A DNA stretch of 55,568 bases from a virus: positions 1 through 55,568 of IMG/VR virus record IMGVR_UViG_3300009157_000022. One strand, written 5' to 3'. Made by a program: the position numbers and the translations under genes. Below, one piece after another: positions 1-55,291 of the stretch. The notes beneath the pieces are model-generated. The model had not been told where the DNA came from. It saw only the letters and a program-made list of their open reading frames with translations, and did not search any database. Within the stretch, counting starts at the first letter, position 1. Each line of letters opens with the position of its first letter.

Positions 1-315
1 GGCGAGGTTCGCACCGGCGAGGTACGCACGGGCGAGGTTCGCACGGGCGAGGTTCGCACCGGCGAGGTACGCATCGGCGAGGTTCGCACCGGCGAGGTTC
101 GCACCGGCGAGGTACGCATCGGCGAGGTACGCATCGGCGAGGTCCGCATCGGCGAGGTCCGCACGGGCGAGGTTCGCACCGGCGAGGTACGCATCGGCGA
201 GGTTCGCACCGGCGAGGTTCGCACCGGCGAGGTACGCACGGGCGAGGTTCGCACGGGCGAGGTTCGCACCGGCGAGGTACGCATCGGCGAGGTTCGCACC
301 GGCGAGGTTCGCATC
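1..315 (-). repeat. 21 tandem 15-bp units encoding the pentapeptide array
   Basis: The plus strand reads GGCGAGGTNCGCAYS 21 times without a gap. Variation is confined to position 9 and the last two bases. Units 1-6 (1-90) are identical to units 15-20 (211-300), so a 14-unit (210 bp) higher-order duplication sits on top of the 15-bp period. There are no spacers, so this is a coding repeat and not a CRISPR array. Confidence 0.95.
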
Positions 316-1623: not shown

Positions 1624-1652
1624 ACTCTACTAAGCAACGCTTAGGATGTCAA
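1624..1652 (-). promoter_or_regulatory. Leftward sigma70-type promoter with embedded operator
   Basis: On the minus strand TTGACA (1652-1647) is followed by a 17-bp spacer and TAGAGT (1629-1624), then 6 bp and the ATG at 1617. The spacer contains the palindrome at 1630-1644, so a bound repressor would block RNA polymerase directly. No leader is left for a Shine-Dalgarno site. Confidence 0.8.
1630..1644. promoter_or_regulatory. Operator palindrome OL1
   Basis: CTAAGCAACGCTTAG has perfect 6-bp arms around AAC. The same arms recur at 2468-2482 next to the Cro-like gene. The pattern fits a homodimeric HTH repressor. Confidence 0.75.
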
Positions 1653-1663
1653 GTGGCGCTTAG
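1649..1663. promoter_or_regulatory. Operator-like half-matched site OL2
   Basis: TCAAGTGGCGCTTAG keeps one perfect GCTTAG arm and a degenerate left arm. Its centre is 19 bp from OL1, a spacing that would allow cooperative binding. It also overlaps the -35 box and the stop of the 1660-1857 gene. Confidence 0.5.
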
Positions 1664-1857
1664 TAAGAAGTCAGCCGAAGGCGATTTCTCCGACGAGGGC
1701 GCGTGCCAAAAATGACCCCCTCCATGACGGCGAGTAGTCCGGTCAGTGCGGCTGGATCGTCTCCAGCGGCATTCAAAACGCGCGCGAAACGAGCTTCCTG
1801 AGTTACCGCGTTTCCGGCCCGTCGCGGTGCCGGCGTCTTCTTTGTCTTCACTGTCAT
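1660..1857 (-). CDS. Hypothetical small basic protein
   Basis: The product has 65 residues with a basic N-terminus (MTVKTKKTPAPRR) and a basic tail (RPRRRNRLR). The sequence GGAGGAG sits only 2 bp before ATG 1857 but 6 bp before an in-frame GTG at 1851, so GTG 1851 may be the true start (63 residues). It could be a small nucleic-acid-binding protein, but no motif proves it. Confidence 0.5.
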   Translation of the reverse strand: MTVKTKKTPAPRRAGNAVTQEARFARVLNAAGDDPAALTGLLAVMEGVIFGTRPRRRNRLRLTSY

Positions 1858-2004
1858 CTCCTCCGGTATCGGCTGCTGCCTACGCCGGTTGATTAGGGAT
1901 GTGCAGTTCTACAAGAGCCGTCTGACTGAATTTTGGAGGGTTCCGGATTGGAGTGGTTTCGTTAGTATTCCGACGACACCTGCAGCATTTGGTTGCGGAC
2001 CGAT

Positions 2005-2427
2005 CTAGCGCTGGATCATCGGGGTTATGAGACGAAGCCACGATTCGGCGGCGCTCAAGATCTCTTGACGTTGCTCGGGGGTGGCGATTCGCCAGAGGTA
2101 ATCGATCTGATCTTTCACCTGGGCAATCGGGCTTTCCGGGTCAAAGATCGTCGGCTGTGCGGCACCAAGGATCTTGTTGAGCGCCGGCATATAAGCCGAG
2201 TAGCTGGGCCTCAGTGGTTCGCCTTTTTTTCCGACAAGGAACTGGGTGAGCGCACTCGACGAGCAAGTGACACGCTTGTCTGCTTTTTCGACGAGAACCG
2301 CGAGATCGTCAAAAGTAAGCCCCTTCTCTTCTCTGCGACGTCGCGCCCACGCCTTATAGGAAAGCGTTGCCCAATAAACTGGCACCGGTTCAGTGGGGAT
2401 AGGTCGCCTCTTAGCCACGCTTAGCAA
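2005..2427 (-). CDS. Phage repressor-like XRE-family HTH protein
   Basis: The N-terminal ~70 residues contain a helix-turn-helix of the XRE kind (AWARRRREEKGLTFDDLAVLV, then a serine-rich recognition helix SSSALTQFLVG). The remaining ~65 residues are helical and could mediate dimerisation. It is transcribed divergently from the Cro-like gene, with operator palindromes between them, which is the standard lysogeny-switch layout. The TTG at 2427 and a GTG at 2418 are both possible starts, and neither has a Shine-Dalgarno site. An operator-like site (2410-2424) covers these starts, which would give autoregulation. No LexA-like peptidase domain is visible. Confidence 0.7.
   Translation of the reverse strand: MLSVAKRRPIPTEPVPVYWATLSYKAWARRRREEKGLTFDDLAVLVEKADKRVTCSSSALTQFLVGKKGEPLRPSYSAYMPALNKILGAAQPTIFDPESPIAQVKDQIDYLWRIATPEQRQEILSAAESWLRLITPMIQR
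2410..2424. promoter_or_regulatory. Operator-like site over the repressor start
   Basis: CTTAGCCACGCTTAG matches the perfect operator at 1630 in 13 of 15 positions. It overlaps the presumed start codon region of the repressor. A lone ACTTAG half-site follows at 2444-2449. Confidence 0.55.
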
Positions 2428-2455
2428 CCGTGCACCACTTCCTACTTAGTTGCGG

Positions 2456-2488
2456 TTGACATGCGTCCTAAGTCGTGCTTAGTAGAGT
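2456..2488 (+). promoter_or_regulatory. Rightward promoter region with operator OR
   Basis: TTGACA at 2456-2461 and TAGAGT at 2483-2488 are the same hexamers as in the leftward promoter, but they lie 21 bp apart instead of 17. The palindrome CTAAGTCGTGCTTAG at 2468-2482 ends directly at the TAGAGT box, just as at the left promoter. Either the spacing makes this promoter depend on an activator, or another -35 is used. Confidence 0.55.
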
Positions 2489-3726: not shown

Positions 3727-3762
3727 TGTGAATAACCAGTCGGTGCGCCTGTGCAGTTGACC

Positions 3763-4134
3763 ATGGGTTCCGACGACGATCCGCGCGCGACCGCTGCATG
3801 GTTCGCGCTGCACGACGCGATCGAAAACGCGGTCAGGCTCATCACGCCGAAAGAGCTTTGCTTCCGGCTCGGCATCTCGGCGCAGTACCTGTCCGAGGCG
3901 CTGCACAACAAGAACAGCAAGGGCTTTCGCGTCGAGTGGCTGACCACCGTGATCGCGATGGCGCCGCTCGAGGCCGTGCTGCCGATTTTGCGCGCGATGT
4001 GCGACCTGCGTGGGTTCGACGTCGAGCGCAAAAAGCAATTGACGCCCGAGCAGGAGCTCGCGGCCACACGGGACGCGCTCAAGCGACTCGCGCCGGCTGT
4101 GCTCGATCTCGTCGACAAAGAGATCGGCAAGTGA
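3763..4134 (+). CDS. Putative phage transcriptional regulator (CII/CP76-like HTH)
   Basis: The protein has 123 residues (127 from GTG 3751). Its N-terminal half reads like an HTH: AIENAVRLITPKELCFRLGI, then SAQYLSEALHNKNSKGF, where an Ala-Gln-Tyr-Leu recognition helix follows a short turn. The C-terminal half is helical (LTPEQELAATRDALKRLAP). Size, position between switch and replication genes, and HTH placement resemble CII-type phage regulators. That makes it the best candidate in the window for an activator of the repeated GAAATCGACCC promoters, but no direct evidence links them. Confidence 0.6.
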   Translation: MGSDDDPRATAAWFALHDAIENAVRLITPKELCFRLGISAQYLSEALHNKNSKGFRVEWLTTVIAMAPLEAVLPILRAMCDLRGFDVERKKQLTPEQELAATRDALKRLAPAVLDLVDKEIGK

Positions 4135-4474: not shown

Positions 4475-4593
4475 CGTGCTCCGTCTGCCGTCGCTCCGCT
4501 GCCGTGCTCATCACGCATACGCAGCGCGTCGCTCGTCGCACCGTGACCTGTGCGATCTGTGTGCCGTGTGAGCTCAAGGAGCGGCGTTCGTGA
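4471..4593 (+). CDS. Tiny zinc-ribbon protein, 40 aa
   Basis: ATG 4471 overlaps the upstream stop as ATGA. The whole product is a minimal zinc ribbon: CSVC at the N-terminus and CAICVPC near the C-terminus, separated by about 22 residues. No other domain is present. The stop overlaps the GAAATCGACCC box of the next promoter. Confidence 0.6.
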   Translation: MTCSVCRRSAAVLITHTQRVARRTVTCAICVPCELKERRS

Positions 4594-4626
4594 AATCGAC
4601 CCACGCATACGTCGCGCGGCACGCTC
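4592..4626 (+). promoter_or_regulatory. Repeated bipartite promoter, site a (replication operon)
   Basis: GAAATCGACCC (4592-4602), 17 bp, CACGCTC (4620-4626), 5 bp, ATG 4632. The distance from box 1 to the start codon is 40 bp. It should drive the helicase, nuclease and primase genes. Confidence 0.75.
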
Positions 4627-4631
4627 CGTTT

Positions 4632-4745
4632 ATGCCTGGCAGCATGAACACACCGCATTCCCTCGCTCGAGCAGACCGCGCCGCTGCCAGGCACGCGAGA
4701 ACCGGGCGAGGGCTTCCTTTCAACAGCGGCGAGCCGTCGGCGTGA
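4632..4745 (+). CDS. Leader peptide-size ORF before the helicase
   Basis: ATG 4632 lies 5 bp after the CACGCTC promoter box, the same spacing as at other units, so this is where a leaderless mRNA would begin. An in-frame GTG at 4590 would give 51 residues but lies inside the promoter. The 37-residue product (begins MPGSMNTPHS) is basic and has no domain. Its stop shares GTGA with the helicase start, so it may mainly deliver ribosomes to the helicase by coupling. Confidence 0.5.
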   Translation: MPGSMNTPHSLARADRAAARHARTGRGLPFNSGEPSA

Positions 4746-7093
4746 AACTCCGCGAGTATCAAGAGCGCGCCATCAGCGCGCTACGGGCAGAGTACGCGCG
4801 CGGCAAGCGTGCACCTTGTCTCGTCTTGCCTACAGGTGCCGGTAAGACCGTCATTGCTGCGGAAATCATTCGCGCGGCCATGGCCCGGAAAAACCGGGTC
4901 CTGTTCCTCGTCCACCGTCACGAACTCCTGGGTCAGTCCGTCGCCAAGCTCGAGCAAGCGGGCGTGACCGACCTGCGCATCATCCGCGCTGGCAACGATC
5001 AAGGGTCACCGACCGCGCCCGTCACTGTCGCGTCGATCCCGACCCTGACCCGATGGACATCCCGGCAGCCCGCCGCCGAGCTCGTCATCGTTGATGAGGC
5101 GCACCACGTCGTCGCCAAGACCTGGCGCAAGCTGGCGAACCACTACGCGGCATCGCTCATCCTTGGACTCACGGCCACACCTCAACGCGCAGACGGCAAG
5201 CCACTCGGTGACATCTTCGATTCGCTCGTCGTCGGCGCCACCGTTCGCGAACTTACCGACCTCGGTCACCTCGTGCCGTGCCGCGTGTTCGCCCCGCCGC
5301 TGGTGCTCGAAACCGCACAGCTCGCGCTGTCGCCGGTCGAGGCGTACATCAAGCACGGCGAGGGGCAGCGTGCGGTGATTTTTTGCGTCACCGTTGAGCA
5401 CGCACAGCGCGTCGCCGACGAGATGAACGCAGCCGGCGTACCGACCGGCGTGGTCAACGGCGAGATGGCGAAAGGCGACCGCCGCGACGTTCTCGCCCGC
5501 CTCAACACCGGCGAGATCCGCGCGGTGTCGTCGATCGGCGTGCTCACCGAGGGATGGGATTGCTTAGACAGCGAGACCGAGATCCTAACATCGCGCGGAT
5601 GGAAAGGCCGGGGGCGAGTCGCTGTCGGCGATATCGTTTACTCGATCAATAAACAAACCGGACAGATGGAGATGGTTCCTGTCGATCGCTACGTTGAACG
5701 ACCCGTCAACGACGGCGAGCGGATGATTTCGATCCGAAGTCAACATGTGAACGTCCGAACAACGGAGGGGCACGAGTTCCACATTAAATACCGTGACCCC
5801 AGCACGGGCGGAGCGTTGTCGCGAAATTGGTTGACGGTTACGGGCGCTAAACTCGTCGAGCGGCGCAGTTCATACGCGCTGCCTCTTTCGGCGCCCCCCG
5901 CGTCCCCCCCGATCGGGGTTGATCTTACCGACGACGAACTGAGGTTGATCGCGTGGTTCATAACCGATGGCGGATTCGAGGGCGGAAGTTTCTGCATCTC
6001 GCAATCGAAGCATTACCGCGACGAGATCAGGACGTTGCTCACGCGACTCGGCCTCGACTTCAGCGAACGAATCAGGAAACCGAGCAACAGCGGCTACAAA
6101 AACGGGAAACCGGTGCACGTGTTCCGCATTCCGAAGGGAACCGGACGCGGAAATAACAAACGTAACGGATGGATCGGGTACGCGGCGTATCTCGATAAGA
6201 ACGTTTCGCCGCTCCTGCACGGCATGTCTGTCGTGCAGTTCGATGTGTTCTGGTCGGAACTCCTCAAGGGTGACGGCGAAAGCGTCGGCAAGCGCGGATG
6301 GCTATGGTGCGATCGCATCTCTCAAGTCAACGCGTACATGGAGATGGCGCTCGTGCGTGGGTTGACCGCGACCTACTCCGAGCGTGTCACCAAGAACAAA
6401 AAGACTGTCTATCGGATTTCTGTTCGCCCGGCGCAATGGATCGTTTCCGATCCTGCGGACAGACGGAGCGCACGAGCGACACTCGAAACGCCGTCGCCGA
6501 GCGAGGTTGTTTGGTGCGTCACGAATCGCAACTCGACAATCGTCACTCGTCGTGGTGGCAAGGTTGCAATCATCGGCAACTGCCCAGCTGTCGCCGTCTG
6601 TATCATGGCGCGCAAGCCGCAACACGCCGGGCTCTATTTGCAGATGGCGGGACGCGTGCTCCGTCCAGCGCCCGGCAAGACACACGCGACGCTGATCGAT
6701 CTATGCGGTTCCGTGCACGACCACGGCACGCCGGACATGGATCGTACGTACACGCTCGACGGTCGCGGTATCTCCAAGGTCGACCGCGATCTGATTCGGC
6801 AGTGCCCGACGTGCGGCGGCGTGTTCAAGGCGGGACCAACAGCCTGTCCGTTGTGCGGATTCACGATGCCGCGGCGCGAGATCGATCTGCCAACGTCGCT
6901 TGGAATCGGCGTCGTCGACCTATCGACGCTGCCGCGACTGGCGCCACGCGCGTGGACGCTGTCGATTCAAGCGAAATATCCCGGAACGTGTCGCGGCTGC
7001 CGTGGTCGGATCGCGGTGGGTGACTCGATCTATTGGATCAAGGGCGAGGGCGCGAGGCATGCGGACTGTGAAGCGGCGAGGGCCAGCGCGTGA
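4742..7093 (+). CDS. DEAH-box SF2 helicase containing an intein
   Basis: GTG 4742 overlaps the upstream stop as GTGA. The 783-codon frame contains a 340-residue intein (274-613), so the mature helicase has about 443 residues. SF2 motifs are intact: Q-like LREYQ at 3-7, Walker A PTGAGKT 30-36, DEAH 118-121, motif III TATP, and, after the intein, motif VI QMAGRVLRP. The C-terminus adds two zinc-binding regions (CPTCG...CPLCG and CRGC...C). ResIII/UvrB-like helicases of this type occur in many phage replication modules, where they probably remodel replication or recombination intermediates. The intein sits between motifs V and VI, so splicing is needed for activity. The VRR-NUC and VapE genes follow with 4-bp overlaps. 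Confidence 0.9.
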   Translation: MKLREYQERAISALRAEYARGKRAPCLVLPTGAGKTVIAAEIIRAAMARKNRVLFLVHRHELLGQSVAKLEQAGVTDLRIIRAGNDQGSPTAPVTVASIPTLTRWTSRQPAAELVIVDEAHHVVAKTWRKLANHYAASLILGLTATPQRADGKPLGDIFDSLVVGATVRELTDLGHLVPCRVFAPPLVLETAQLALSPVEAYIKHGEGQRAVIFCVTVEHAQRVADEMNAAGVPTGVVNGEMAKGDRRDVLARLNTGEIRAVSSIGVLTEGWDCLDSETEILTSRGWKGRGRVAVGDIVYSINKQTGQMEMVPVDRYVERPVNDGERMISIRSQHVNVRTTEGHEFHIKYRDPSTGGALSRNWLTVTGAKLVERRSSYALPLSAPPASPPIGVDLTDDELRLIAWFITDGGFEGGSFCISQSKHYRDEIRTLLTRLGLDFSERIRKPSNSGYKNGKPVHVFRIPKGTGRGNNKRNGWIGYAAYLDKNVSPLLHGMSVVQFDVFWSELLKGDGESVGKRGWLWCDRISQVNAYMEMALVRGLTATYSERVTKNKKTVYRISVRPAQWIVSDPADRRSARATLETPSPSEVVWCVTNRNSTIVTRRGGKVAIIGNCPAVAVCIMARKPQHAGLYLQMAGRVLRPAPGKTHATLIDLCGSVHDHGTPDMDRTYTLDGRGISKVDRDLIRQCPTCGGVFKAGPTACPLCGFTMPRREIDLPTSLGIGVVDLSTLPRLAPRAWTLSIQAKYPGTCRGCRGRIAVGDSIYWIKGEGARHADCEAARASA
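5561..6580 (+). mobile_element. Intein with LAGLIDADG-type homing endonuclease
   Basis: The element is 340 codons long, from Cys (CLDSETEILT, block A) to Asn (VAIIGN, block G), followed by Cys+1 of the C-extein. Block B is VRTTEGHEF. Two degenerate dodecapeptide motifs mark the endonuclease (LRLIAWFITDGGF and FWSELLKGDG). Block F is VWCVTNRNSTIVTRRGGK. The residue before the terminal Asn is Gly rather than the usual His, which occurs in some active inteins. Removing it joins LTEGWD directly to CPAVAV, a normal SF2 motif V region. Codons are visibly more AT-rich than the exteins, which suggests recent transfer. Confidence 0.9.
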
Positions 7094-14174: not shown

Positions 14175-15648
14175 GCTGCGCTGGCATCGCGCGGCGATCG
14201 AGAAGTCGCTCGCCGAAGATCGGTTGGTCAACTTCATCCGGATGCTGTGGCCGGTCGTCGAGCCTGGTCGCGAGTTCATCCGCGGCTGGGCGATCGATGC
14301 GATCTGTGAGCATCTCGAAGCGGTTACGTCGGGCGAGATCAAGCGCCTGCTGATCAACGTCCCGCCGGGATTCATGAAGTCGCTGGCCACGTGCGTGTTC
14401 TGGCCCGCATGGGAGTGGGGCCCGCGCAATCGCGCCGACCTTCGCTACATCTTCGCCGGCTACGTCGGGTCGCTGACTGTGACCAACAACATGAAGCTAC
14501 GCCGGCTCGTCGAGAGCGACACCTATCAGGCGCTGTGGGGGAATCGCGTCAAACTCGCCGACGATCAGAACGCCAAGACGATGTTCGAGAACACTCGGAC
14601 CGGGTTCGCGCTCGCGACCTCGGTCGGCGGCGCCGTCATGGGCAAGCGCGGCGATCGAGCGATCCTCGACGATCCGAACAACACCAAGGACGTTGACTCC
14701 GACGCCAAACTCGACGGCGCGCTGCAGTTCTTGACCGAGGTGTTACCTACGCGTGTCAACGACGAGCAGACGTTCGCGCAGGTCACGATCATGCAGCGCA
14801 CGGGCGATCGCGACGTGTCCGGTCACATCCTGTCGAGCCACTTCGGGGACGTGCACCTGTGCATTCCGATGGAGTGGCGCACGGGCCACCCGTACATCGC
14901 CTATGCGCACAAGCCGACGGCGATCAGCTGGAGTGATCCACGCACGGTCGACGGCGAGCTGGCGTTCCCTGAGCGGTTCTCGCGCGAGGGTGTCGATGCG
15001 CTCAAGATCCAGCTTGCGTCGTGGGGTGGTGACTACGCGGTTGCAGGCCAGCTCGACCAGTTACCGATCCCGCGCGGTGGAGGCATGTTCGCCGAAGAGT
15101 GGTTCGATCAAGTCTGCGAGCTCGACGAGGTGCCCGCCGGTGGTGTCACGGTACGCTCATGGGACTTCGCCGGCTCGGTGCGCAAGACGTCGCCGTTCAC
15201 GGCGTCGACGAAGATCAAGCGCGCCCCCAACGGCAAGTTGTACCTGCTCGATGTCACGTGCGATCGGATCGAGGCCGCGGGGCTCGAGGACCATGTCGCG
15301 ATGACCTGCAACGCGGATGCGCAGGATACGATTATCGACGTGCCGCAGGATCCGGGCCAGGCTGGCAAGGTGCAGGTGTCCGCAATGGCGCGGCGGTTCC
15401 ATGGCCGGACGTTTCTGTTCTCTCCGGAATCCGGCTCGAAAGAACATCGCGCGCAGCCGATCGCATCGCAGTGCAAGGCCAAGAACCTGATCCTGGTGCG
15501 CGGCGCGTGGAACCGCGGGTTCGTCAACGAAGCCAAGTCGTTTCCGCGCGGCATGTTCAAGGATCGGATCGACGCGCTGTCGCGCGGCTATGCGCGGCTG
15601 GTGCAGGGCGGCAACGCCGAGGTGATCCACGGCGGGTTCGTGGGATAG
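14155..15648 (+). CDS. terL: Terminase large subunit
   Basis: ATG 14155 overlaps the small subunit by 20 bp. 497 residues. The ATPase domain has a Walker A-like NVPPGFMKS near residue 70 and Walker B RAILDDP near residue 170, with the coupling motif in FAQVTIMQRTGD. The nuclease domain has the RNase H-like acidic residues in VRSWDFAGS, TIIDVPQDPGQAGK and KDRIDALSRGY. It cuts the concatemer and pumps DNA into the prohead, docking on the portal encoded next. Confidence 0.9.
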   Translation: MNLSSTELRWHRAAIEKSLAEDRLVNFIRMLWPVVEPGREFIRGWAIDAICEHLEAVTSGEIKRLLINVPPGFMKSLATCVFWPAWEWGPRNRADLRYIFAGYVGSLTVTNNMKLRRLVESDTYQALWGNRVKLADDQNAKTMFENTRTGFALATSVGGAVMGKRGDRAILDDPNNTKDVDSDAKLDGALQFLTEVLPTRVNDEQTFAQVTIMQRTGDRDVSGHILSSHFGDVHLCIPMEWRTGHPYIAYAHKPTAISWSDPRTVDGELAFPERFSREGVDALKIQLASWGGDYAVAGQLDQLPIPRGGGMFAEEWFDQVCELDEVPAGGVTVRSWDFAGSVRKTSPFTASTKIKRAPNGKLYLLDVTCDRIEAAGLEDHVAMTCNADAQDTIIDVPQDPGQAGKVQVSAMARRFHGRTFLFSPESGSKEHRAQPIASQCKAKNLILVRGAWNRGFVNEAKSFPRGMFKDRIDALSRGYARLVQGGNAEVIHGGFVG

Positions 15649-25486: not shown

Positions 25487-25810
25487 CTAAGGATCCCGCA
25501 CCGGCAGCTTGAGCGGTGGCAGCGCCGTTTCGCCGTCGACGAGCACGCGGATGTGATGATTGCGCGCGGCGAGATTCGCGCTCTGCGCGCCCGTGATCAC
25601 GAAGTCCACCATGCCGACGGTATCCCCCGATTGTGGCTGGAGCGTCGCGCCCGCGCCAATGGATAGCGAGATCAGGACGGGTGCGGTTGTGCGCCGACGC
25701 AGTTCGAGTACGACGGTTTTTCCGGTGAGATCTGTGCGCGTCCCGTCGTCATCGTTGGTACACGTTCCGGTCCAGGTCCAGTCTTCGCCTTTGTAGAGTA
25801 CGAGGCTCAT
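25487..25810 (-). CDS. Beta-rich phage structural domain, 107 aa
   Basis: It starts [13 protein letters not shown] and has a small beta-sandwich pattern ([44 protein letters not shown]). This recalls the N-terminal BppU-like domains of phage baseplate or tail proteins. It overlaps the stop of the 25807 gene by ATGA. Probably part of a tail-tip or fibre complex. Confidence 0.55.
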
Positions 25811-27561
25811 GGTGTCTCCGTGAGGGTCATCGTGCGCGCGCTGGGGTTGGAGAGAGTGATGGTGCGGGGGACGTACGCGACCGCTGCCGCTGTCGACGAT
25901 CCCGCCGCGCTGCCCGAGGACGCCGAGATACCCGCGGTAGTTCCTTCGCCGGTTGCCGTCGACGTGCCCGCGGCCGAGCCGGTCGCCTCGGCCGTACTCG
26001 CGCCGACCCCTGTCGCACTGGAGTCGCCCGCCGCAGTGCCACTCGCTGCTGCGGTCGATGCCCCGACACCTGACGCTGACGACTCCGCGGCTGCCGATCC
26101 GCTCGCCGCAACGGTCGCCGCGCCTGTGCCGGTCGCCGTTGCGGTTCCCGCCGAGCTGCCAGAGCTCGCCGCTACGGACTCGCCGGTCGCCGCGGCAGTG
26201 GACGTGCCCGCGCTCGTGCCGGTCGCGGTATCGCCGCCGACGGTGGTGCCTTCGCCTACCGCGGTCGATGTACCGGCAGCAGATCCAGACGACTCGGCGA
26301 CAGACGCGCCGGTGCCTGTCGCGCTCGCAATCCCCGCGCTCGTACCGCTCGCGGTCGCGGTTGATTCGCCAGCGCCTGCCGCGGTTGCGGTACCGGCACT
26401 GGTTCCTGATGACGCCGCGGTCGACTCTCCGACTGCAGACGCTGCCGCCGATCCGGCCGCGGTTCCGCTCGATGTCGCAGTCGATTCACCGGCTGCCGAT
26501 GCTGCCGACGTGCCAGCCGCCGATCCGGCCGCCTCGATGACAGCCAGGCCGACGGCCGATGCGGTCGACTCGCCTGCCGAGGATCCAGAGCTTGCGGCAG
26601 TGGATGCGCCAACACCTGCGGCGGTAGCGGATCCTGAGGCGGTGCCGCTGCTCGTCGCCGTCGATTCGCCAGCGGCAGATGCACTCGCGATGCCTGCGGA
26701 TGTGCCGCTGCTCGCGGCCGTGGACTCGCCCGTCGCTGCGCCGATCGATGTGCCTGCGGCCGTGCCAGTTCCTGCGAGCACGGACTCGCCGACGGCGCTG
26801 GCGGACGACGATCCGGATACCGTACCTGACGACTCTGCGACGGACGCCCCGGTAGCGCTTGCGGTCGCACTGCCGGCAGACGTTCCGCTCGACTCTGCCG
26901 TGCTTTCTCCAGCCGCACTCGCCGAACCGACACCGGTGGCCGTTCCGCTGCTGGCGGCCGTGGATTCACCAACTGCACTTGCAGTTGACGATCCAGCGGA
27001 CGATCCATCTGCCTCGGTCGGCGCAGCAGTTTTGTCGGCAGTGATGCGCGGCGTGACCGTGTACGCCGCGAACACGCTACCGTTGAGCAGCACGCGAAAG
27101 TCGAGCGTGTCGGCGTCGCTGAGATCGGCCGAGACCAGCGTGATCGCGTAGAGCATCTCGGTGTGGTTGTTCGCCGTCAACTGCCGATCGGTGACGAGTC
27201 CGACCTCGCTGATCTCGCCCGCGACGAATGAGCCGCCGCCGGCCGATAGTCGATTCGTTGTCGTACCGGCGTCGGTCAAGCTGCCAGAGGCGAAGCCCTT
27301 CACGACCGCCGACGATGCGGTCACACTCACCCACGAGCCACTGTCGTTTAGCTCGTACTGAAGCTGATAGTCGTCAGTGGTTGCACCGCTGATCGATCCA
27401 GATCCGGACTCCTGAATGCCGTAGCGCAATAGCAGGTTCGAGTCCGACGTAACGAGACGCGTGATGTTCGTTGATTCGGCGTCGATCGCGACAGAGCCGG
27501 CTTCTGTTCCGTCCTCGTAGAACCGGAACGCACGTGCGGTACATGCGAAAACATTAGGCAC
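25807..27561 (-). CDS. Tail-associated protein with 20-residue Ala/Gly/Ser/Thr repeats
   Basis: 584 residues. The first ~180 form an ordinary beta-rich domain ([18 protein letters not shown]...). Residues ~185-565 are about 19 repeats of a 20-residue unit with consensus ASAxGESTAxSSGTxxGxxT. A short conserved tail follows ([19 protein letters not shown]). Similar Gly/Ala/Ser/Thr repeats occur in phage tail and head fibres and probably form an extended fibrous shaft. The opposite strand is also open over 440 codons, but the unique N-terminal domain and the promoter at 28756 support this strand. Confidence 0.7.
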
Positions 27562-47979: not shown

Positions 47980-47996
47980 TTGCTCACCCGTTGCTC
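47980..47996 (+). repeat. Arm-type integrase site P', copy 2
   Basis: Identical 17-bp copy of the repeat at 47805, in the same orientation, about 72 bp right of the att core and overlapping the integrase stop codon. A pair flanking the core is what tyrosine recombinases of the lambda type need. Confidence 0.65.
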
Positions 47997-49047
47997 AGGC
48001 CGCCCGGATCCTAGGGAGGCTGGCAATGGCGGCGGTAAAGTTCGCATCGCTCAGCCGCCCGTAGACCTTCTCCACCATGCGCGTGGACGTGTGGCCAAGG
48101 AGCTGTGCGACCACGAGCGAGTCATGCCCCTGTTGCTTGAGCCAGCTCGCAAACGTCCGGCGCAGGTCATTCGGTGTCACCGCGTGTAGCCGTGGCGGCG
48201 GTTTGCGCTTGCGTTTGAACGACGCCGCTTCGTCCTGACGGTTGATGCGCTCGATCGCTGCGGCAAGGTCGCGCCGCACGTTGGGCCACTTCAGCACGAC
48301 CCGGTCACCCTTGCGCCGCTTGTACTCCGCACGGAGCAACCGTTCCAGGTCCGCGCCGATCGGCACCACGCGCCACGAGCTCGCCGTCTTGCGTCCCGGC
48401 ACGCGCAACCGCTTGGCCGACAGGTCTACGTGCTCCCACCGGAGCGACTCCACCTCGGACAGACGGAGCCCCGCCAGCATCGCCAGGGCGGCCCACAGGC
48501 GCCGTAGCGGGTGGGCAAGCTCGCGGAGCAGCCGCCCACCATTCGCCGCGGTAAGCCAGTTCTCGCGCGGCTCGTAGTTGACCTTCACACTGGGCACTAT
48601 GGCGCGCGGGTCGCCTCGCCATAGGTCGCGCTCGCGAGCCTCGTGGAGCGCGCGGCGCAGCACGACCATCTCTTTGTGGATCGTCCCATCTGCCGCGCCC
48701 TGTCGCCTGCGCTCGCCCATGTACGCGAGCACGACGTCACGGGTCAGTTCCGCGAGATCGATATCGCCAAGCCCGTTGACTAGGTTCTCGCCTTTCTGGC
48801 GATACGCTTTCCAGGTAGGGGCGGCGTTGCCGTGAGACACGACCGCGAGCAAGTCGCCGATGGCCGCTTTCAGCGAGTGCCGCGAGTGCGCTGGCTTGTC
48901 GGTCGATACCAGTTCAAGTTGTCGGAGGCGGGCACGCGCGACCGCCGAGTCTTTGGTTCCGAGCGACCTGCGGCGGTGCCTGCCTTTCGTGTCCGTCCAG
49001 TAGCCGTAGTACGTGCCGCCTTTGCGCCGCTGGTAGATTCGTCCCAT
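47995..49047 (-). CDS. int: Tyrosine recombinase (phage integrase)
   Basis: 350 residues. N-terminal arm-binding region, SAM-like core-binding domain (~75-150) and catalytic domain. Catalytic set: R195 (AGLRLSEVESLRW), K220, R296 (TPNDLRRTF), H319 (LLGHTS) and nucleophile Y329 (VEKVYGRL). The first His of the usual HxLRH motif is Asn293 here, and the second is Arg, a known variation. Its 3' end overlaps the right arm-type site, so gene and attachment site form one unit. It recombines at tRNA-Phe. Confidence 0.9.
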   Translation of the reverse strand: MGRIYQRRKGGTYYGYWTDTKGRHRRRSLGTKDSAVARARLRQLELVSTDKPAHSRHSLKAAIGDLLAVVSHGNAAPTWKAYRQKGENLVNGLGDIDLAELTRDVVLAYMGERRRQGAADGTIHKEMVVLRRALHEARERDLWRGDPRAIVPSVKVNYEPRENWLTAANGGRLLRELAHPLRRLWAALAMLAGLRLSEVESLRWEHVDLSAKRLRVPGRKTASSWRVVPIGADLERLLRAEYKRRKGDRVVLKWPNVRRDLAAAIERINRQDEAASFKRKRKPPPRLHAVTPNDLRRTFASWLKQQGHDSLVVAQLLGHTSTRMVEKVYGRLSDANFTAAIASLPRIRAA

Positions 49048-49208
49048 GGTCCCCTGGTGAGCGGGGAAAGGTAACGCGACAGCGCAGGCTCAGGCACGCG
49101 GATCAAGCGACCAATGCGGACGTGCACGCACTCCCGAGCGATGCGATAGGCTTTCGCACGCGAGACGCCAAGCTGTTTGGCGATCTGCTCGGGGGAGAGG
49201 TAAATCAC
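48870..49208 (-). CDS. Excisionase-like MerR-type HTH protein, overlapping int
   Basis: GTG 49208 overlaps as GTGA. 112 residues. The first ~50 form a winged HTH of the DNA-binding excisionase family (YLSPEQIAKQLGVSRAKAYR, then VRIGRLIRVPEPALSRYL). The basic C-terminal half lies in the frame that overlaps the start of int by 178 bp. It should control excision direction. Confidence 0.7.
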   Translation of the reverse strand: MIYLSPEQIAKQLGVSRAKAYRIARECVHVRIGRLIRVPEPALSRYLSPLTRGPWDESTSGAKAARTTATGRTRKAGTAAGRSEPKTRRSRVPASDNLNWYRPTSQRTRGTR

Positions 49209-49375
49209 CCGAGCACCTTCCGCTCCTCGTCGAGATGCCTCGCCCTGTCCTCGGCAGTTCGGTACCGATACACCACGGTCCCGAGGTGCTGAGACTGACC
49301 GGACACGCGCTCGACGACACGCGACCGCCCGAATCGAGCGAATGGGAAGTCCTGGGATGGATCGTAGGCGTCCAT
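49205..49375 (-). CDS. Hypothetical protein, 56 aa
   Basis: I chose ATG 49375 (TAATG overlap, GGGAGG upstream). Basic, mostly helical C-terminus (YRTAEDRARHLDEERKVLG). Function unknown; directly upstream of the excisionase-like gene. Confidence 0.5.
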   Translation of the reverse strand: MDAYDPSQDFPFARFGRSRVVERVSGQSQHLGTVVYRYRTAEDRARHLDEERKVLG

Positions 49376-49524
49376 TAGTCCCTCCCAGCGGGAGGTTGAT
49401 AAGGCACCATGCGGGAACCACACAGAGGACACACGAAGGCTTTTTTGCTCGACGTGTGCACCTCGACATCGCACCAGGTACAGAGCCACTCTTCCCTCCT
49501 GTCGATGCGAGCACGGCGGGTCAT
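49375..49524 (-). CDS. Tiny zinc-ribbon protein, 49 aa
   Basis: ATG 49524 (ATGA overlap) to the TAA at 49377-49375 encodes a basic start (MTRRARIDRREEW) and a minimal zinc ribbon: CTWC and CPLC about 20 residues apart. It ends in a TAATG overlap. The family is unknown, but the C-x2-C pairs are clear. Confidence 0.6.
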   Translation of the reverse strand: MTRRARIDRREEWLCTWCDVEVHTSSKKAFVCPLCGSRMVPYQPPAGRD

Positions 49525-49757
49525 GGGGAGACTCGCCCGCATCCTGGCGTCCATACTGTCGCGTCATGCGTGTCGCTCTCAAACGGGAACAGCATCACCG
49601 TCGCAGTCGCCAGACCGCATTCGTACGCCCTACACAGCGCCCCTGCTACGGCGAGATTGTAGGCGAGCACTGCGACCCGCCGATGCACGTCGCAAATGCG
49701 TTCGCCTCCGACGCGACCGAACCAGTCGCATGCTTTGCAGTCGGACGGTCCGGTCAT
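49521..49757 (-). CDS. Cys-containing protein, 78 aa
   Basis: ATG 49757 overlaps as ATGA. It has CKACDWF...ICDVH at the N-terminus (likely metal site) and a central hydrophobic stretch (VAVLAYNLAVAGALC). Function unknown. Confidence 0.5.
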   Translation of the reverse strand: MTGPSDCKACDWFGRVGGERICDVHRRVAVLAYNLAVAGALCRAYECGLATATVMLFPFESDTHDATVWTPGCGRVSP

Positions 49758-49936
49758 CGCTTCCCCTTCGCCGCATCACGCGCGGCGGATTGGAGTGCAC
49801 GGGCGAGCTGCTCGGCTTCGAGCGAGGTCATGTAGCGAACGTTGAAATCGAGCACGACGTAGTCGTCAACGACTTGCACAACGGCACCGTCGTTTAGCGC
49901 TCCAATTGGCACGACCCATTGCGGACTGGCTTTCAT
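49754..49936 (-). CDS. Hypothetical protein, 60 aa
   Basis: I chose ATG 49936 because it makes an ATGA overlap with the upstream small gene. The product (begins MKASPQWVVPIGALNDG) is a small beta domain with a helical tail (EAEQLARALQSAARDAAKGK). Function unknown. Confidence 0.5.
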   Translation of the reverse strand: MKASPQWVVPIGALNDGAVVQVVDDYVVLDFNVRYMTSLEAEQLARALQSAARDAAKGKR

Positions 49937-50085
49937 GCTGCGCCTCTCATCGTGTCGCCGAGTAACCAGTGAGCCGCCGCCGGGTTTCGGATCGCGATCG
50001 CGAGTCCTTCCCACGACCGGAGAAACGCCCGCCAGGGGTTGCAGACGCGACAGCAGCACGGGGAGCAGAAGGGGCAATGATTCAC
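49933..50085 (-). CDS. Tiny Cys-rich protein, 50 aa
   Basis: GTG 50085 (GTGA overlap) to the TGA at 49935-49933 (ATGA overlap). The N-terminus is MNHCPFCSPCCCRVC, seven Cys in 15 residues, followed by a helix. Probably a metal-binding peptide. Shared overlaps on both ends support it. Confidence 0.55.
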   Translation of the reverse strand: MNHCPFCSPCCCRVCNPWRAFLRSWEGLAIAIRNPAAAHWLLGDTMRGAA

Positions 50086-50702
50086 GCCGCCACTCCCCGC
50101 ACGCGGTAAACGGAGCGGGCCATGTCTAGGAGGACGTCGCGGAACGAGTCTGGTGTTCTCGCCGCTACGTCACGCCCAACGCGGGGACGGTCCCCGCGTT
50201 TGTGGCCGCGCGTGTTGTTGCCGCACCACGACACCCAAACGCGGCTCTGCTGATCTGGAATGTGCCCCCACAGCAGGTCGGGCAACTCAACGTCGACGGC
50301 GTAGAGCCACGTGGCTTTCTTGGCGACGTGACCGTACCGGCCTTGCTCGACGTAGCAGGACCAACCGCCGTGCGTGTCACGTGCCCAACCTCCGCCGGTT
50401 GGCGGCGGTGGCAAGTTGAACGCTGGCCAGGCGTCGCTATACGCCGGGTGTTCGAGCACGCCCCCCCATGTTCGCAGCGAGCGGAGCGCTGACTTGAAGC
50501 AGCCGCCATCGTCGCCGCGTTTGTGTCCCCAGCGAGCCTCGACAAGACCGGCGAGTCGGCACCAGCGAGAACACGGCGAATGGCAGACAACCGGATGCGG
50601 ACCGGCGTACAACCGTGCATCGCGCGAGATGTCCCACGGGTCGACGTCTGGCAGGTTCCAGTACGGGCCTCCGCGTTCGACGAAGAGAGCGGCGACTTTC
50701 AC
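50082..50702 (-). CDS. Conserved phage protein with PC-motif, possible methylase relative
   Basis: I chose GTG 50702 (GTGA). 206 residues. The pattern PVVCHSPCSRWCRLAGL, then GGCFKSALRSLRTWGGVLEHPAYSDAW, GGWSCYVEQGRYGHVAKKATWLYAV, is a common phage family. The SPCSRW and LEHP motifs recall the PPCxxW and ENP motifs of cytosine-C5 methyltransferases, but motif I (SAM binding) is not evident, so activity is uncertain. Confidence 0.6.
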   Translation of the reverse strand: MKVAALFVERGGPYWNLPDVDPWDISRDARLYAGPHPVVCHSPCSRWCRLAGLVEARWGHKRGDDGGCFKSALRSLRTWGGVLEHPAYSDAWPAFNLPPPPTGGGWARDTHGGWSCYVEQGRYGHVAKKATWLYAVDVELPDLLWGHIPDQQSRVWVSWCGNNTRGHKRGDRPRVGRDVAARTPDSFRDVLLDMARSVYRVRGVAA

Positions 50703-51025
50703 GGCGCCAACCTCCACAGCTTTCGTCGGCGTACTCTCTCGCGCCATTCCTCTGGCGAGTCAGACCAGCCTGCCGTCGAGTACACGCCGTGAACCTTCAC
50801 AACGATTCGCCCGTTTCCGCTCGCGTTATGCTCGATGATCAGGTTCGTCTTGCCCTGGACCCAGATGTCGCCAACCTTCGGAGCCAGGTCACGAGTTCGA
50901 TAGTGGTACCAGCGCGCCCAGGCCAGAGTGATTAGCGGCTCAACAACCAGGTGCAGCAAGAGCAATGCGACAAGCCCGACGATGGGCGCCAGCACGGCAT
51001 AGCCAATCACGGCCCAGGGACTCAC
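50699..51025 (-). CDS. Membrane protein, 108 aa
   Basis: GTG 51025. The N-terminal half is two adjoining hydrophobic stretches (AVIGYAVLAPIVGLVALLLL HLVVEPLITLAWARW). The C-terminal half is a soluble, Trp- and Lys-containing domain (PKVGDIWVQGKTNLIIEHN). No family recognised. Confidence 0.55.
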   Translation of the reverse strand: MSPWAVIGYAVLAPIVGLVALLLLHLVVEPLITLAWARWYHYRTRDLAPKVGDIWVQGKTNLIIEHNASGNGRIVVKVHGVYSTAGWSDSPEEWRERVRRRKLWRLAP

Positions 51026-51267
51026 CGCTTCCCTCCGAGTTGGGCGCGCATGGTTTTCGCGTCCACGACGTCAGCTGCCTTCAGCAACACGGCCGCAAGT
51101 TCGCGGGCCTTGTCCGGTGTCAGATACGAAGACGCTGATCTAACTCCTGGGTCGCTATTGATGCGGATGTCGTACTCGTATCCGAACCCCGTGCCGAGAT
51201 TGTTGCGCGTAACCGACACCGAAACGGCGTGCCACTTGTTCGTGCGAATGCAGCGACGGAGAATCAT
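51022..51267 (-). CDS. Hypothetical protein, 81 aa
   Basis: I chose ATG 51267 (ATGA). The N-terminus (MILRRCIRTNKWHAVSVSVT) is beta-like, followed by YLTPDKARELAAVLLKAADVVDA, a helix. No family recognised; coupled to neighbours by overlaps. Confidence 0.5.
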   Translation of the reverse strand: MILRRCIRTNKWHAVSVSVTRNNLGTGFGYEYDIRINSDPGVRSASSYLTPDKARELAAVLLKAADVVDAKTMRAQLGGKR

Positions 51268-51539
51268 CGCTCCCCCCACTGAAACACCGCAACATCCACC
51301 GCGTCGCGAATCCTCGCCTCACGCTCTGCACCCGGCTCCCACAGCCGGCACAGGTCGGCGATCCATTCGGCTAGCTGGAGTTCGCGGCGGGGAGGTGGAG
51401 TGGCGGGGCCGAGGGAGAGCCAGGCGCCGCAACCGATGCAGCGGAATTGCTCGCACGCCACAATGTTCATCGGCTGATCGTCCAGGTTAAACCACTCGCC
51501 CGGCATCAGGTGATCTGCGTTCCCGTGCCGACACTTCAT
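51264..51539 (-). CDS. Zinc-ribbon-like protein, 91 aa
   Basis: ATG 51539 overlaps the upstream stop as ATGA. Early residues KCRHGNADH and the later ACEQFRCIGCGAW supply Cys pairs for a zinc site. The C-terminal half is helical and acidic. Function unknown. Confidence 0.5.
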   Translation of the reverse strand: MKCRHGNADHLMPGEWFNLDDQPMNIVACEQFRCIGCGAWLSLGPATPPPRRELQLAEWIADLCRLWEPGAEREARIRDAVDVAVFQWGER

Positions 51540-51790
51540 CTCGTCCCCCGAGCGGCGGAGATGAGGCGGTAGAGGACGGTTCGAGCCAGCCGGTAACGGT
51601 AGCTACCGACATAGGGGTCACTGCACAGCTCTGTCAACGCCTCGGCCTCCTTCGCTGTCAGGTCCACGGCGCGTCTCTCGCGCACTTCGAATATCAGCCG
51701 TTGCACCAGCACGGACCGAGGCGGCTCACCGAGGTGCGTCGGGAACAGCTTGTAGACATCGTCCAGTTCCTCCTCGCTAAGCCGTGCCAT
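51536..51790 (-). CDS. Hypothetical helical protein, 84 aa
   Basis: 84 residues, helical throughout (EEELDDVYKLFPTHL; DLTAKEAEALTELCSDPYVG). It overlaps the coiled-coil gene by 14 bp. No family recognised. Confidence 0.5.
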   Translation of the reverse strand: MARLSEEELDDVYKLFPTHLGEPPRSVLVQRLIFEVRERRAVDLTAKEAEALTELCSDPYVGSYRYRLARTVLYRLISAARGTR

Positions 51791-52487
51791 CGTCTTGCTC
51801 CTTGGCGGTGAATTTCACTGCGTTAACCGCGAGCAGCAGCTCATCGCCCGGATATGCCGGGAACCGCGGGTGAGGCTTGCCGACATAGGCCGTCTCGCAC
51901 CAGGTCTTAGCCGCCTCGTACACCGCTCGCATCCGCTCATTATCTGCCTTGAGCCGGGCGAGATCGGCGCGCGCCGCGTCCCTCTCAGCCCGCAGATGCG
52001 CGTGGTGCGCTGCTTCAATGTCGCGCTGGGAGCGATAGTTGACCGCCGCAGCCCGGAGCTTTTTTCGCTCGCCCTTCCACGTATCACGGAGTCCGCCTTT
52101 AATCTTGGCAACGAACGATTCCGCGACCTGCAAGCGACGTTCTAGCCTTTCATTCTGTCGCACTCGGCCTGCGACCTGTCGCAGCGCGTCACTAAGCTCT
52201 TTCTCCAACTCCGCCACGCGAGCGCGGAGGGAGTCGCGCTGCTCGAGGAGCCGCTGAAAATCCTGCTTGACTTCCTCTTCGCTCAGCTTGCGCAACCTCA
52301 AGCCGTCTGCAATGGAATCCATTGCGTGACACACGTAACCGATGCGCATTTGGTGAATATCGACGGCTTCGGGAGGACAAAAATGGGCGTCCTCACACTG
52401 CTTGAGAATCGCTCGCGCCGCCTTCTCTGCCATTGCCCAGTCGATTTCGAGTCCGCTTCTGATTAGTGGTTTCTTCTCGTCGCTCAC
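51777..52487 (-). CDS. Long coiled-coil protein
   Basis: I chose GTG 52487 (GTGA). 236 residues. Residues ~70-180 form a long coiled coil (LLEQRDSLRARVAELEKELS; NERLERRLQVAESFVAKIKG). C-terminal residues contain AYPGDELLLAVNAV. Possibly a scaffolding or structural partner of the neighbouring small genes. Confidence 0.55.
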   Translation of the reverse strand: MSDEKKPLIRSGLEIDWAMAEKAARAILKQCEDAHFCPPEAVDIHQMRIGYVCHAMDSIADGLRLRKLSEEEVKQDFQRLLEQRDSLRARVAELEKELSDALRQVAGRVRQNERLERRLQVAESFVAKIKGGLRDTWKGERKKLRAAAVNYRSQRDIEAAHHAHLRAERDAARADLARLKADNERMRAVYEAAKTWCETAYVGKPHPRFPAYPGDELLLAVNAVKFTAKEQDDGTA

Positions 52488-52846
52488 TTCTCCCCCGCCT
52501 TTCCGTCGATCTCCGATCGAATCGCGTCGATCAGTTCGGCCTCGCCTGGATAAAACGAGTTCTGAAGACAGGCGATGTCGCATGCCTCGCGGCACAGCGA
52601 TTTGAGTCTTTTGATCTCGTCCAGCAACGCCAGCACCGTCGAGGGCGAGCAAGCGGCGATGAACCTACCCTGCGCATGCGTCCGCTCGTCAACCTGCTCC
52701 GGTTGCCACGAGACGCCGTCGTAAAGCGTCCCGTCGAGGGCAAACTGAGACGTGTCCACCTGACCGCGGACCTCCGAATAGAGCCACTCGCCGGGCATGG
52801 CCGCCTCTGCCAGTGCGCGGAGCTTGGACAGGTCAGGTCCCGTCAT
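52484..52846 (-). CDS. Ead/Ea22-like protein
   Basis: I chose ATG 52846 (ATGA). 120 residues. The N-terminus SKLRALAEAAMPGEWLYSEV and the later RFIAACSPSTVLALLDEIKRL are the two marks of Ead/Ea22-type early phage proteins, whose role in lambda is host-related but unclear. It lies in the run of accessory early genes. Confidence 0.65.
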   Translation of the reverse strand: MTGPDLSKLRALAEAAMPGEWLYSEVRGQVDTSQFALDGTLYDGVSWQPEQVDERTHAQGRFIAACSPSTVLALLDEIKRLKSLCREACDIACLQNSFYPGEAELIDAIRSEIDGKAGEK

Positions 52847-53049
52847 GACTTCTTGCACCCCTTCCCCGGCCTGCACCACGCGTTGGTCATGTCGTAGTAG
52901 ACCTGCAACTCGACGAATCGCGCACGCCGTCTCTGTTTGCAGCAGCGACACCAGACGAACGCATGCGGGCTTGTCGTGTGCAGGTAGTCGAACCCCGGCA
53001 CTCGGTACCGGGTCGCTGGTTGTCTCTTTGCTGTGTAGACGTGAATCAT
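52843..53049 (-). CDS. Zinc-ribbon protein, 68 aa
   Basis: 68 residues, with WCRCCKQ and a later WCRPGKGC pair, a possible zinc ribbon. The N-terminus (MIHVYTAKRQPATRYRVPG) is basic. First gene of this small-gene run after a 98-bp gap. Confidence 0.5.
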   Translation of the reverse strand: MIHVYTAKRQPATRYRVPGFDYLHTTSPHAFVWCRCCKQRRRARFVELQVYYDMTNAWCRPGKGCKKS

Positions 53050-53147
53050 CTCGTCATGCTCCCCGGACTCGAACCGACCGCCGCACGCCTACTCGTGCTT
53101 GGAACATGTGCCGTAGTTTGGTGAGCGCTGGCCTGCAGCGCGGGGAT

Positions 53148-54296
53148 CTAGCCGGCGGACTCCAGCAATCGATTGATCTCCGCGGTGTCGATCTGCGGCT
53201 TCTCAGCTGGCTCGCTCCGGTCCCTGGCGAACTCGCCTATCGGCATCGGGTCGGCCGCGTGCGTCGTCCCGCCGAGCTCGCGGACCCGGCGCACCACAGC
53301 CGGCACCGTGCCGCGCTTGCACCCGAGTTGCTTGGCCGCGCGCTCGATCGCAGCCTTGCTTGTCGTGTGCTCGATCGCGACCGACTCAAACTCCTTGGCC
53401 GACTCGCCGACGACCTCGCGGATCGCTTGCATAGCGACCGAGCCCGACAGCCGCTCGTTACCCTTACGGACGTAGCGGCCGAACATGCGACCGTTGCCCA
53501 AGTCGATGGGGCCGTGGTCGTCTACGTACGTGTTCAGACGCTGACGAGCCGCGGTAACGATCTGCTCAACGCGAACGATCTGCTCGTAGGCCACGGCCGC
53601 GGTCTCTGGCGTGACGCTCTCGCCGATGACGACCAGCCCGGACATCTGGCCGATGAGAGCTACCTTCGAGGGACAAACATGTTTCGAAGCGCAGTGCTTG
53701 CACCAGGAGCCCTCGCGCGTATCGAGAACTTCGCCGCGTTGCTTGGCCGCTTGCAACTCGGGCACACGGCGGTGGAGCCACTCGAGCCGGCCGGCGAACT
53801 CGGCCAGGTCAAGCGCGTCGAGCGTGTGCTCGTCGCAGCGGTTGCCCTGTTTGGTGTAGACGATGCGGAGCACCACCTTGGACTTGCCAAGCGCGGTTGC
53901 GGCGGCGAGACCGTATCCCCAGAGTTGCCAGTTTCGCGACGCTGGATCGACGTCGGCATAGCCTGACTTCCAGTCGAGCACGAACACGGTATCGCCTTCG
54001 ACCCACAGGCGATCGATCGACCCAGCAATCTCGAACGGCCCGAGCGCGCCGTACTCTCGACCGTCCCCGTCACCGAGAAACCGTGCCGTGCGCGCCGCGA
54101 CGTCGTAAGCAATCTTGACCTCGGCACGCGAGTGATCCGGGCACAGGTGCGCCAGTTCGTCGGGAACGTCGGCGGCCAAGTCGGCGTGCGAGTCCTGCCC
54201 CATGCCCGCCCACTCCGAGTAGTTCTCGGCGCGCTCAAGCACGGCAGACGCGGTGCAATTAAGCAACCGCGGCAGAGCGGACATGGTGAGCAGCAT
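53148..54296 (-). CDS. Cas4/AddB-like PD-(D/E)XK exonuclease with four Cys
   Basis: 382 residues. ATG 54296 overlaps the upstream stop as TAATG. The active site is D95 and the D108-W109-K110 motif (GSIDRLW, then VFVLDWKSGY). A single Cys near the N-terminus (C14) and a C-terminal trio (C199-x2-C202-x5-C208) reproduce the pattern of Cas4 and AddB iron-sulfur nucleases. The last ~100 residues are helical. It is paired with the Sak4-like ATPase, so the two likely form a phage recombination system. Confidence 0.75.
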   Translation of the reverse strand: MLLTMSALPRLLNCTASAVLERAENYSEWAGMGQDSHADLAADVPDELAHLCPDHSRAEVKIAYDVAARTARFLGDGDGREYGALGPFEIAGSIDRLWVEGDTVFVLDWKSGYADVDPASRNWQLWGYGLAAATALGKSKVVLRIVYTKQGNRCDEHTLDALDLAEFAGRLEWLHRRVPELQAAKQRGEVLDTREGSWCKHCASKHVCPSKVALIGQMSGLVVIGESVTPETAAVAYEQIVRVEQIVTAARQRLNTYVDDHGPIDLGNGRMFGRYVRKGNERLSGSVAMQAIREVVGESAKEFESVAIEHTTSKAAIERAAKQLGCKRGTVPAVVRRVRELGGTTHAADPMPIGEFARDRSEPAEKPQIDTAEINRLLESAG

Positions 54297-55225
54297 TAGG
54301 CCGCGACTCCTTCAAGCGAGCGCTTGCGAGCCTCGTAGACCGCAATCGCTCGATCGTACTGCGGGGTTCCCTTAGTGGGCTTTCCTGGCCCCGTCGCAAC
54401 GCTGGTTAGGTCTGCCACGGTTGCAGCCTTCTCCATCGCTACGAGGTAGTCGGCGAACACTTTGTCGAGCTCGGCGGAGACGGGTTCGGGCTTGGCCGGC
54501 TCGACAACGCGCGGGGCGGGCGCAACGCCGCTGCTGAGCCACTCACGGAGTTGCTTCGCCAGTTTCTCGCCTGGCTTCTCGATGATGTCGCCCACGCCAA
54601 TCGCCGAGCATCGCGACTTGCTCACGATCAACTCGTGGGACAGGTTCATGTCCCCGACGATTGTGAACTCGTAGTCCAGGCCGTCGCGCTGGATCGGTGC
54701 CAGTCCAACCTTGCGCGGCGCGCTCTTGCCGGTCTTCTCGTCTTTCTCTAGGACGTATTCCATCTTGCTGCGCAGGGTCGCGATCAGGTGCGACTTGCAC
54801 GACAGCATCGTGTCAACGAGCCGATTGTGTTTCGGGGTGACATCCCGCCACGCGGTGAAGTTGTTGGCCTTGCCTTCGCGCTTGGCGATCTTGTCGACCT
54901 GCTCGAGTGCGCCGTCCTTGCCGGCCCATGCGTGCGAGAGCGAGTCGATGACAATCACGTCGTACCCGGCATCTTCGGCCGCACCGATTGCCTCGACGTA
55001 ATCCTCGGGTCCGTGACGTTCCAGATCGAGCGTGTCGAACGTGAACCGATCTGCATAGAGCGACGCGGAGCCGCGCTCGGTGTCGATCAGCGCGACACGA
55101 CCACCGGGCACAAGGTGCATCGCAATCGAAAGAGCGGAGTAGGTCTTGCCGCTGCCGGCGAGACCGATGAGAGCGAGACGGAGCTTTGCCTGTTCTTTGG
55201 TTGCGCGTTTGAATGAGAGAGACAT
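54296..55225 (-). CDS. Sak4-like RecA-family ATPase (single-strand annealing)
   Basis: I chose ATG 55225 (MSLSFKRATKEQ), with AAAGGA upstream. 309 residues with Walker A GLAGSGKT at 21-28, Walker B DVIVIDSLSHAW, and a later conserved block (SHLIATLRSKMEYVLEKDE; GLDYEFTIVGDMNLSH). This matches AAA_24/Sak4 proteins, which bind ssDNA and promote annealing in phage recombination. It overlaps the nuclease gene by TAATG. Confidence 0.8.
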   Translation of the reverse strand: MSLSFKRATKEQAKLRLALIGLAGSGKTYSALSIAMHLVPGGRVALIDTERGSASLYADRFTFDTLDLERHGPEDYVEAIGAAEDAGYDVIVIDSLSHAWAGKDGALEQVDKIAKREGKANNFTAWRDVTPKHNRLVDTMLSCKSHLIATLRSKMEYVLEKDEKTGKSAPRKVGLAPIQRDGLDYEFTIVGDMNLSHELIVSKSRCSAIGVGDIIEKPGEKLAKQLREWLSSGVAPAPRVVEPAKPEPVSAELDKVFADYLVAMEKAATVADLTSVATGPGKPTKGTPQYDRAIAVYEARKRSLEGVAA

Positions 55226-55291
55226 GTTTGGTTTTTCCTTTCGAACCCGGCGCACGAGTCGAACGCGCGCTGCGACCATCCGGGCTACCGC

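Follow-up and report, generated by a model that had tools for sequence, protein, structure and literature searches.

An immunity region of the lambda type by its architecture

We have identified the lysis/lysogeny control (immunity) region of an uncultivated temperate phage, and by its architecture this region is a switch of the lambda OL/OR type, in which a repressor gene is flanked by two early promoters (PL and PR) that carry the same perfect palindrome. The DNA analysed (hereafter the window) is the whole of the IMG/VR record IMGVR_UViG_3300009157_000022 (55,568 bases), which encodes an integrase as well as phage structural genes. It is very likely that the region, taken as a whole, also works in the manner of lambda OL/OR. 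From the sequence we infer that the palindromes are bound by the repressor and by a Cro-like protein, and in which direction regulation would run.

An earlier note on this DNA had proposed shared operators in a “divergent” lysogeny switch. The first part of this proposal is well supported: the gene order is syntenic, the promoters are paired, and each of four related phages carries an operator of its own in both early promoters. The word “divergent” has to be qualified, as PL and PR face outwards from the two sides of the repressor gene and do not form a single divergent pair.

Palindromes and early promoters

The sequence CTAAG-N5-CTTAG occurs in its perfect form at 1630-1644 (candidate operator OL1, CTAAGCAACGCTTAG), within the PL spacer and adjoining the -10 box, and at 2468-2482 (candidate operator OR1, CTAAGTCGTGCTTAG), 838 bp away. 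These are the only two exact copies in 55.6 kb, and none was found in 200 dinucleotide shuffles. Two further operator-like sites are imperfect: OL2 (1649-1663, two mismatches) overlaps the PL -35 box, and a weak site at 2410-2424 (one mismatch, CTTAGCCACGCTTAG), which in reality is a direct repeat of CTTAG, overlaps the first codons of the repressor gene, where it is a possible autoregulatory site. Each early promoter is provided with one perfect and one weak site, and a set of three tandem operators per promoter was not found. The four sites had been listed in the earlier note, together with a TAGAGT hexamer abutting each of the perfect palindromes (1624-1629, - strand; 2483-2488, + strand), and all of them were recovered at these positions.

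When up to two mismatches are tolerated, the window contains five sites, which is an ordinary count (4.4 expected); four of the five, however, lie no more than 95 bp upstream of one of the two early start codons. Generic 5-N5-5 dyads with any arm show no enrichment in the window (91 against 93 expected), so the evidence lies in the position of the sites and in the AT-rich arm shared by two promoters, and not in palindromicity as such. A reading of the palindromes as transcribed hairpins was dropped, because both perfect copies are located upstream of the predicted start sites.

PL (1624-1652, - strand) consists of a TTGACA -35 box (1647-1652), a 17-bp spacer and a TAGAGT -10 box (1624-1629) placed 6 nt before the start codon, i.e. 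TTGACA-17-TAGAGT-GGCTTC-ATG 1617. In the right early promoter, PR (2456-2488, + strand), the TTGACA -35 box (2456-2461) is followed at 18 bp by TAGTAG (2480-2485), which we prefer as the -10 box and which gives TTGACA-18-TAGTAG-AGTGT-GTG 2491; TTAGTA (2479-2484), at a spacing of 17 bp, is also possible. The distance from the -35 box to the start codon is 29 bp in both promoters. The whole window was scanned for the pattern TTGACN-16..18-TANNNN-5..7-RTG (ATG or GTG) opening an ORF of at least 45 aa. Exactly two matches were obtained (shuffled sequences average 0.14), namely PL and PR, and both hold the perfect palindrome. The mRNAs of PL and PR are probably leaderless, starting at or beside ATG 1617 and GTG 2491, respectively; a leaderless cro mRNA is known in phage PY54 (PMC4488713). 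No promoter of the repressor gene's own was identified.

Genes of the region

The gene under PL (1057-1617, - strand; 186 aa) is the first of the leftward early operon. Its product gave no family match above the cutoff and no match in the records of the related phages. A gene for a small basic protein of 65 aa (1660-1857, - strand) is placed downstream of the repressor gene, a position that is conserved in these phages.

The repressor-type HTH protein (137 aa) is encoded at 2005-2418 (- strand). The earlier note had given this gene as 2005-2427; alignment makes GTG 2418 a more likely start than TTG 2427. HTH models matched the protein weakly (0.0095). Its structural model, which places a helix-turn-helix at about residues 36-62, reaches a moderate confidence (pLDDT 72) and has no fold match in the PDB that passes E 0.001. 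These results, together with the imperfection of OL2 and of the 2410 site, count against the lambda-like model. No homologues of the repressor were obtained when viral, genome and phage collections were scanned with its single sequence. The syntenic repressors of two related phages (L141 and L143, see below) pass the Pfam cut-off for HTH domains (HTH_3/HTH_31). Family searches found no peptidase domain of the RecA-stimulated type, either in the 137-aa protein or in the repressors of the relatives examined, which makes RecA-type self-cleavage, as in lambda CI, unlikely.

The first gene under PR (2491-2715, + strand), which most likely starts with GTG 2491, encodes a Cro-like HTH_3 protein of 74 aa (E 3.8e-16 against HTH_3). 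Among solved structures, the P22 C2 repressor is the nearest to it in sequence (5.4e-6) and is also among its best fold matches. The matches of this protein in bacterial genomes were set aside as generic HTH relatives. The rightward operon also contains, in the CII position, a gene for a possible HTH regulator of 127 aa (3751-4134, + strand), with only weak family matches (MarR_2, repressor families). This protein is 74% identical in L141, though the repressor and operators of L141 differ.

Candidate operators and recognition helices in related phages

Relatives were gathered through queries with the CII-position protein and the primase. The gene order PL gene, small protein, repressor, cro is common to five phages, i.e. 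the window and four metagenomic relatives: L141 (IMGVR_UViG_3300036790_000378), L143 (3300021057_000001), L209 (3300010400_000023) and L236 (the L213/L236 record, 3300034816_000006). To our knowledge, this phage group has no cultivated members. Each relative has two early promoters with -35 boxes of the TTGAC- or TTGC-type, and the PR spacing is 17-18 bp. In nine of the ten promoters of the five phages the -35 box is separated from the start codon by 29-30 bp; the remaining one, PR of L143 (32 bp), also has the poorest -10 box among the ten.

All five phages carry their own arm-N5-arm candidate operator in both early promoters. That of L141 is GGTTAG-N5-CTAACC (4 sites in 8 kb, all in the two promoters; 0.71 expected) and that of L143 is TTAG-N5-CTAA (3 sites in 21.5 kb, again all in the two promoters; 0.5 expected). 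L209 and L236 have TCCAC-N5-GTGGA in both promoters, and this motif, with two mismatches, also occurs elsewhere in their loci. On the cro side, 23 bp separate the beginning of the site from the cro start in the window, L141, L209 and L236 (four of the five), and 25 bp in L143, where the motif is shorter. On the left side, the site starts at a distance of 4-5 bp from the start codon in each of the relatives as against 13 bp in the window, which differs from them also in the spacing of sites within a promoter.

The recognition helices of the Cro proteins form the same three groups as the operators (PSAVAQW in the window, AAxYxW in L141/L143 and STYYSWE in L209/L236), and the repressors of L209 and L236 have SSAGYK/RSAGYK in common. 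The operators vary in step with the recognition helices of both proteins, which is partly co-inheritance and not independent covariation, since L209/L236 and L141/L143 are relatives. As a comparison of sequences, this correspondence supports recognition by phage-encoded proteins. In the window, the recognition helices of both the Cro-like protein and the repressor contain S-x-S-A-[VL]-x-Q-[WF].

IMG/VR matches to the exact operator plus TAGANT (47, roughly the number expected by chance) were considered as further relatives and rejected; they are single sites in contigs of low to moderate GC content, with no TTGACA nearby. From the relatives found by terminase no immunity region was obtained, and L057 gave no Cro match. 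In L212, a phage of the same group, CTGTACGTACAG and CTGTACGCACAG lie over the -10 boxes of two TTGAC-17-TACAGT-6-ATG promoters at 15053 and 20933, 5.9 kb apart. L237 (G006:C1:28000-39500) has three TTGACG promoters with the ATG 5-7 nt past the -10 box and with the spacer word GAGGTAC in common, which may constitute a similar operator regulon.

The proposed switch

In the lambda-like model, the repressor would bind CTAAG-N5-CTTAG at OL1 (plus OL2) and OR1, and the bound protein would block RNA polymerase at PL and PR, so that the leftward operon would be silenced, and likewise the rightward operon with cro and the replication genes. The same sites would be read by the Cro-like protein, which after induction would turn off first the repressor and later the early promoters.

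It is conceivable, at a clearly lower probability, that the palindromes are used by only one of the two phage HTH proteins (most likely the repressor) and that the Cro-like protein acts elsewhere. Such an arrangement would have a parallel in Cro of PY54, which binds a single site near the cI gene (PMC4488713), and would be consistent with the weak 2410 site over the repressor start. The recognition helix of the Cro-like protein, however, resembles that of the repressor (by a pattern that is fairly generic for the family), which argues against this reading.

Promoter spacing and the nature of the palindromes

Read as letters, TTGACA and TAGAGT are indeed 17 bp apart on the left and 21 bp apart on the right, as first described, and the earlier note had suggested that this inequality may set which promoter escapes repression first. 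Our data do not bear this out, given the identical -35-to-start distance in PL and PR and the PR spacing of the relatives. If the hexamer TAGAGT at 2483-2488 served as the -10 box, the transcript would start near 2495, past the cro start at GTG 2491; the hexamer is out of register with this codon. The 29-bp distance common to both promoters makes TAGTAG/TTAGTA the more likely -10 box of PR. Most likely, then, PR uses this box at 17-18 bp, no special spacing effect is needed, and the TAGAGT at 21 bp is probably a copied or out-of-register box. PR may be weaker than PL, its in-register -10 box being poor.

That PR truly uses TAGAGT at 21 bp, as a weak or regulated promoter whose different spacing orders derepression, seems improbable to us. 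In its favour, PL and PR have an identical 14-bp word (TGCTTAGTAGAGTG) in common, and PR of L236 (ATTAGTAGAGTGGTTGCATG) has TAGAGT at 17 bp. It would, however, leave only TTG 2497 as the cro start, where alignment favours GTG 2491, and it conflicts with the promoter geometry of the window and its relatives. A spacing of 21 bp is also far from the sigma-70 optimum.

We consider it highly improbable that the palindromes belong to the promoters as such or are recognised by a host regulator, and are not phage operators. TTAG directly 5' of the -10 box does recur in PL of three phages, but a host factor or a core promoter element would keep the motif constant, whereas it differs among relatives that have the promoter layout in common, and follows the HTH proteins of the phages. 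Next to no credence is given to PR as a 21-bp promoter with the dyad in an overlong spacer, which an HTH_3-type phage protein would activate by DNA distortion in a MerR-like manner.

Comparison with known immunity systems

Phage lambda has the order OL/PL-cI-OR/PR-cro, with three operators per promoter, 17-bp dyads, a peptidase domain in CI and the rexAB genes. As in lambda, the repressor gene described here lies between two outward early promoters, a Cro-like HTH gene comes first in the rightward operon, and one operator type is present in both promoters; the dyads are of odd length in both systems (15 bp here). Unlike lambda, the region has at most two recognisable sites per promoter, a repressor that lacks the peptidase domain of CI, early promoters that are predicted to be leaderless, and a small basic gene where lambda has rexAB.

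The operators of P22 have the form AAG-N4-CTT, compared with AAG-N5-CTT here. The P22 C2 protein shares 32% identity with the Cro-like protein by fold alignment; C2 is a repressor, whereas the matching protein of the window is the lytic-side regulator. With the immB regions of PY54 and N15, the window shares lambda-like roles and a cro with a leaderless mRNA (here predicted) from the immediately upstream promoter; in PY54 the cI mRNA is leaderless too and Cro binds a single site, unlike the palindrome described here, which is common to two promoters (PMC4488713).

These results assign an uncultivated group of phages, represented by five records, to the switches of the lambda type. Within this group promoter geometry has been kept and operator and HTH specificity varied; a small natural series of this kind is of use in the prediction of immunity groups and in tests of operator/helix codes. 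As the repressor has no peptidase domain, one may ask how these prophages are induced.

Other features of the record

The ends of the record are not joined, and its leftmost gene, which encodes a pentapeptide-repeat-type protein (ANLAGANLADAYLAGA...; 1-430, - strand) and belongs to the leftward operon, is truncated at base 1, so that the record probably represents a fragment whose break fell within a repeat. At its other end, Sak4-like/exonuclease genes and the integrase gene occupy the - strand (47995-55279). The best matches of the terminase are in Shewanella and Rhizobium phages (up to 45%). Rfam and tRNA scans of the window found nothing. A 584-aa Ala/Ser/Gly/Thr repeat protein (25807-27561, - strand) has no Pfam match, and long open frames are present on the opposite strand. 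The gene for a DEAD/ResIII helicase (4550-7093, + strand) is split by an in-frame, intein-like insert, which is absent from the helicase homologue of L143; the insert starts with CLDSETEILTSRGW, ends with IIGNC and shows a weak LAGLIDADG match.
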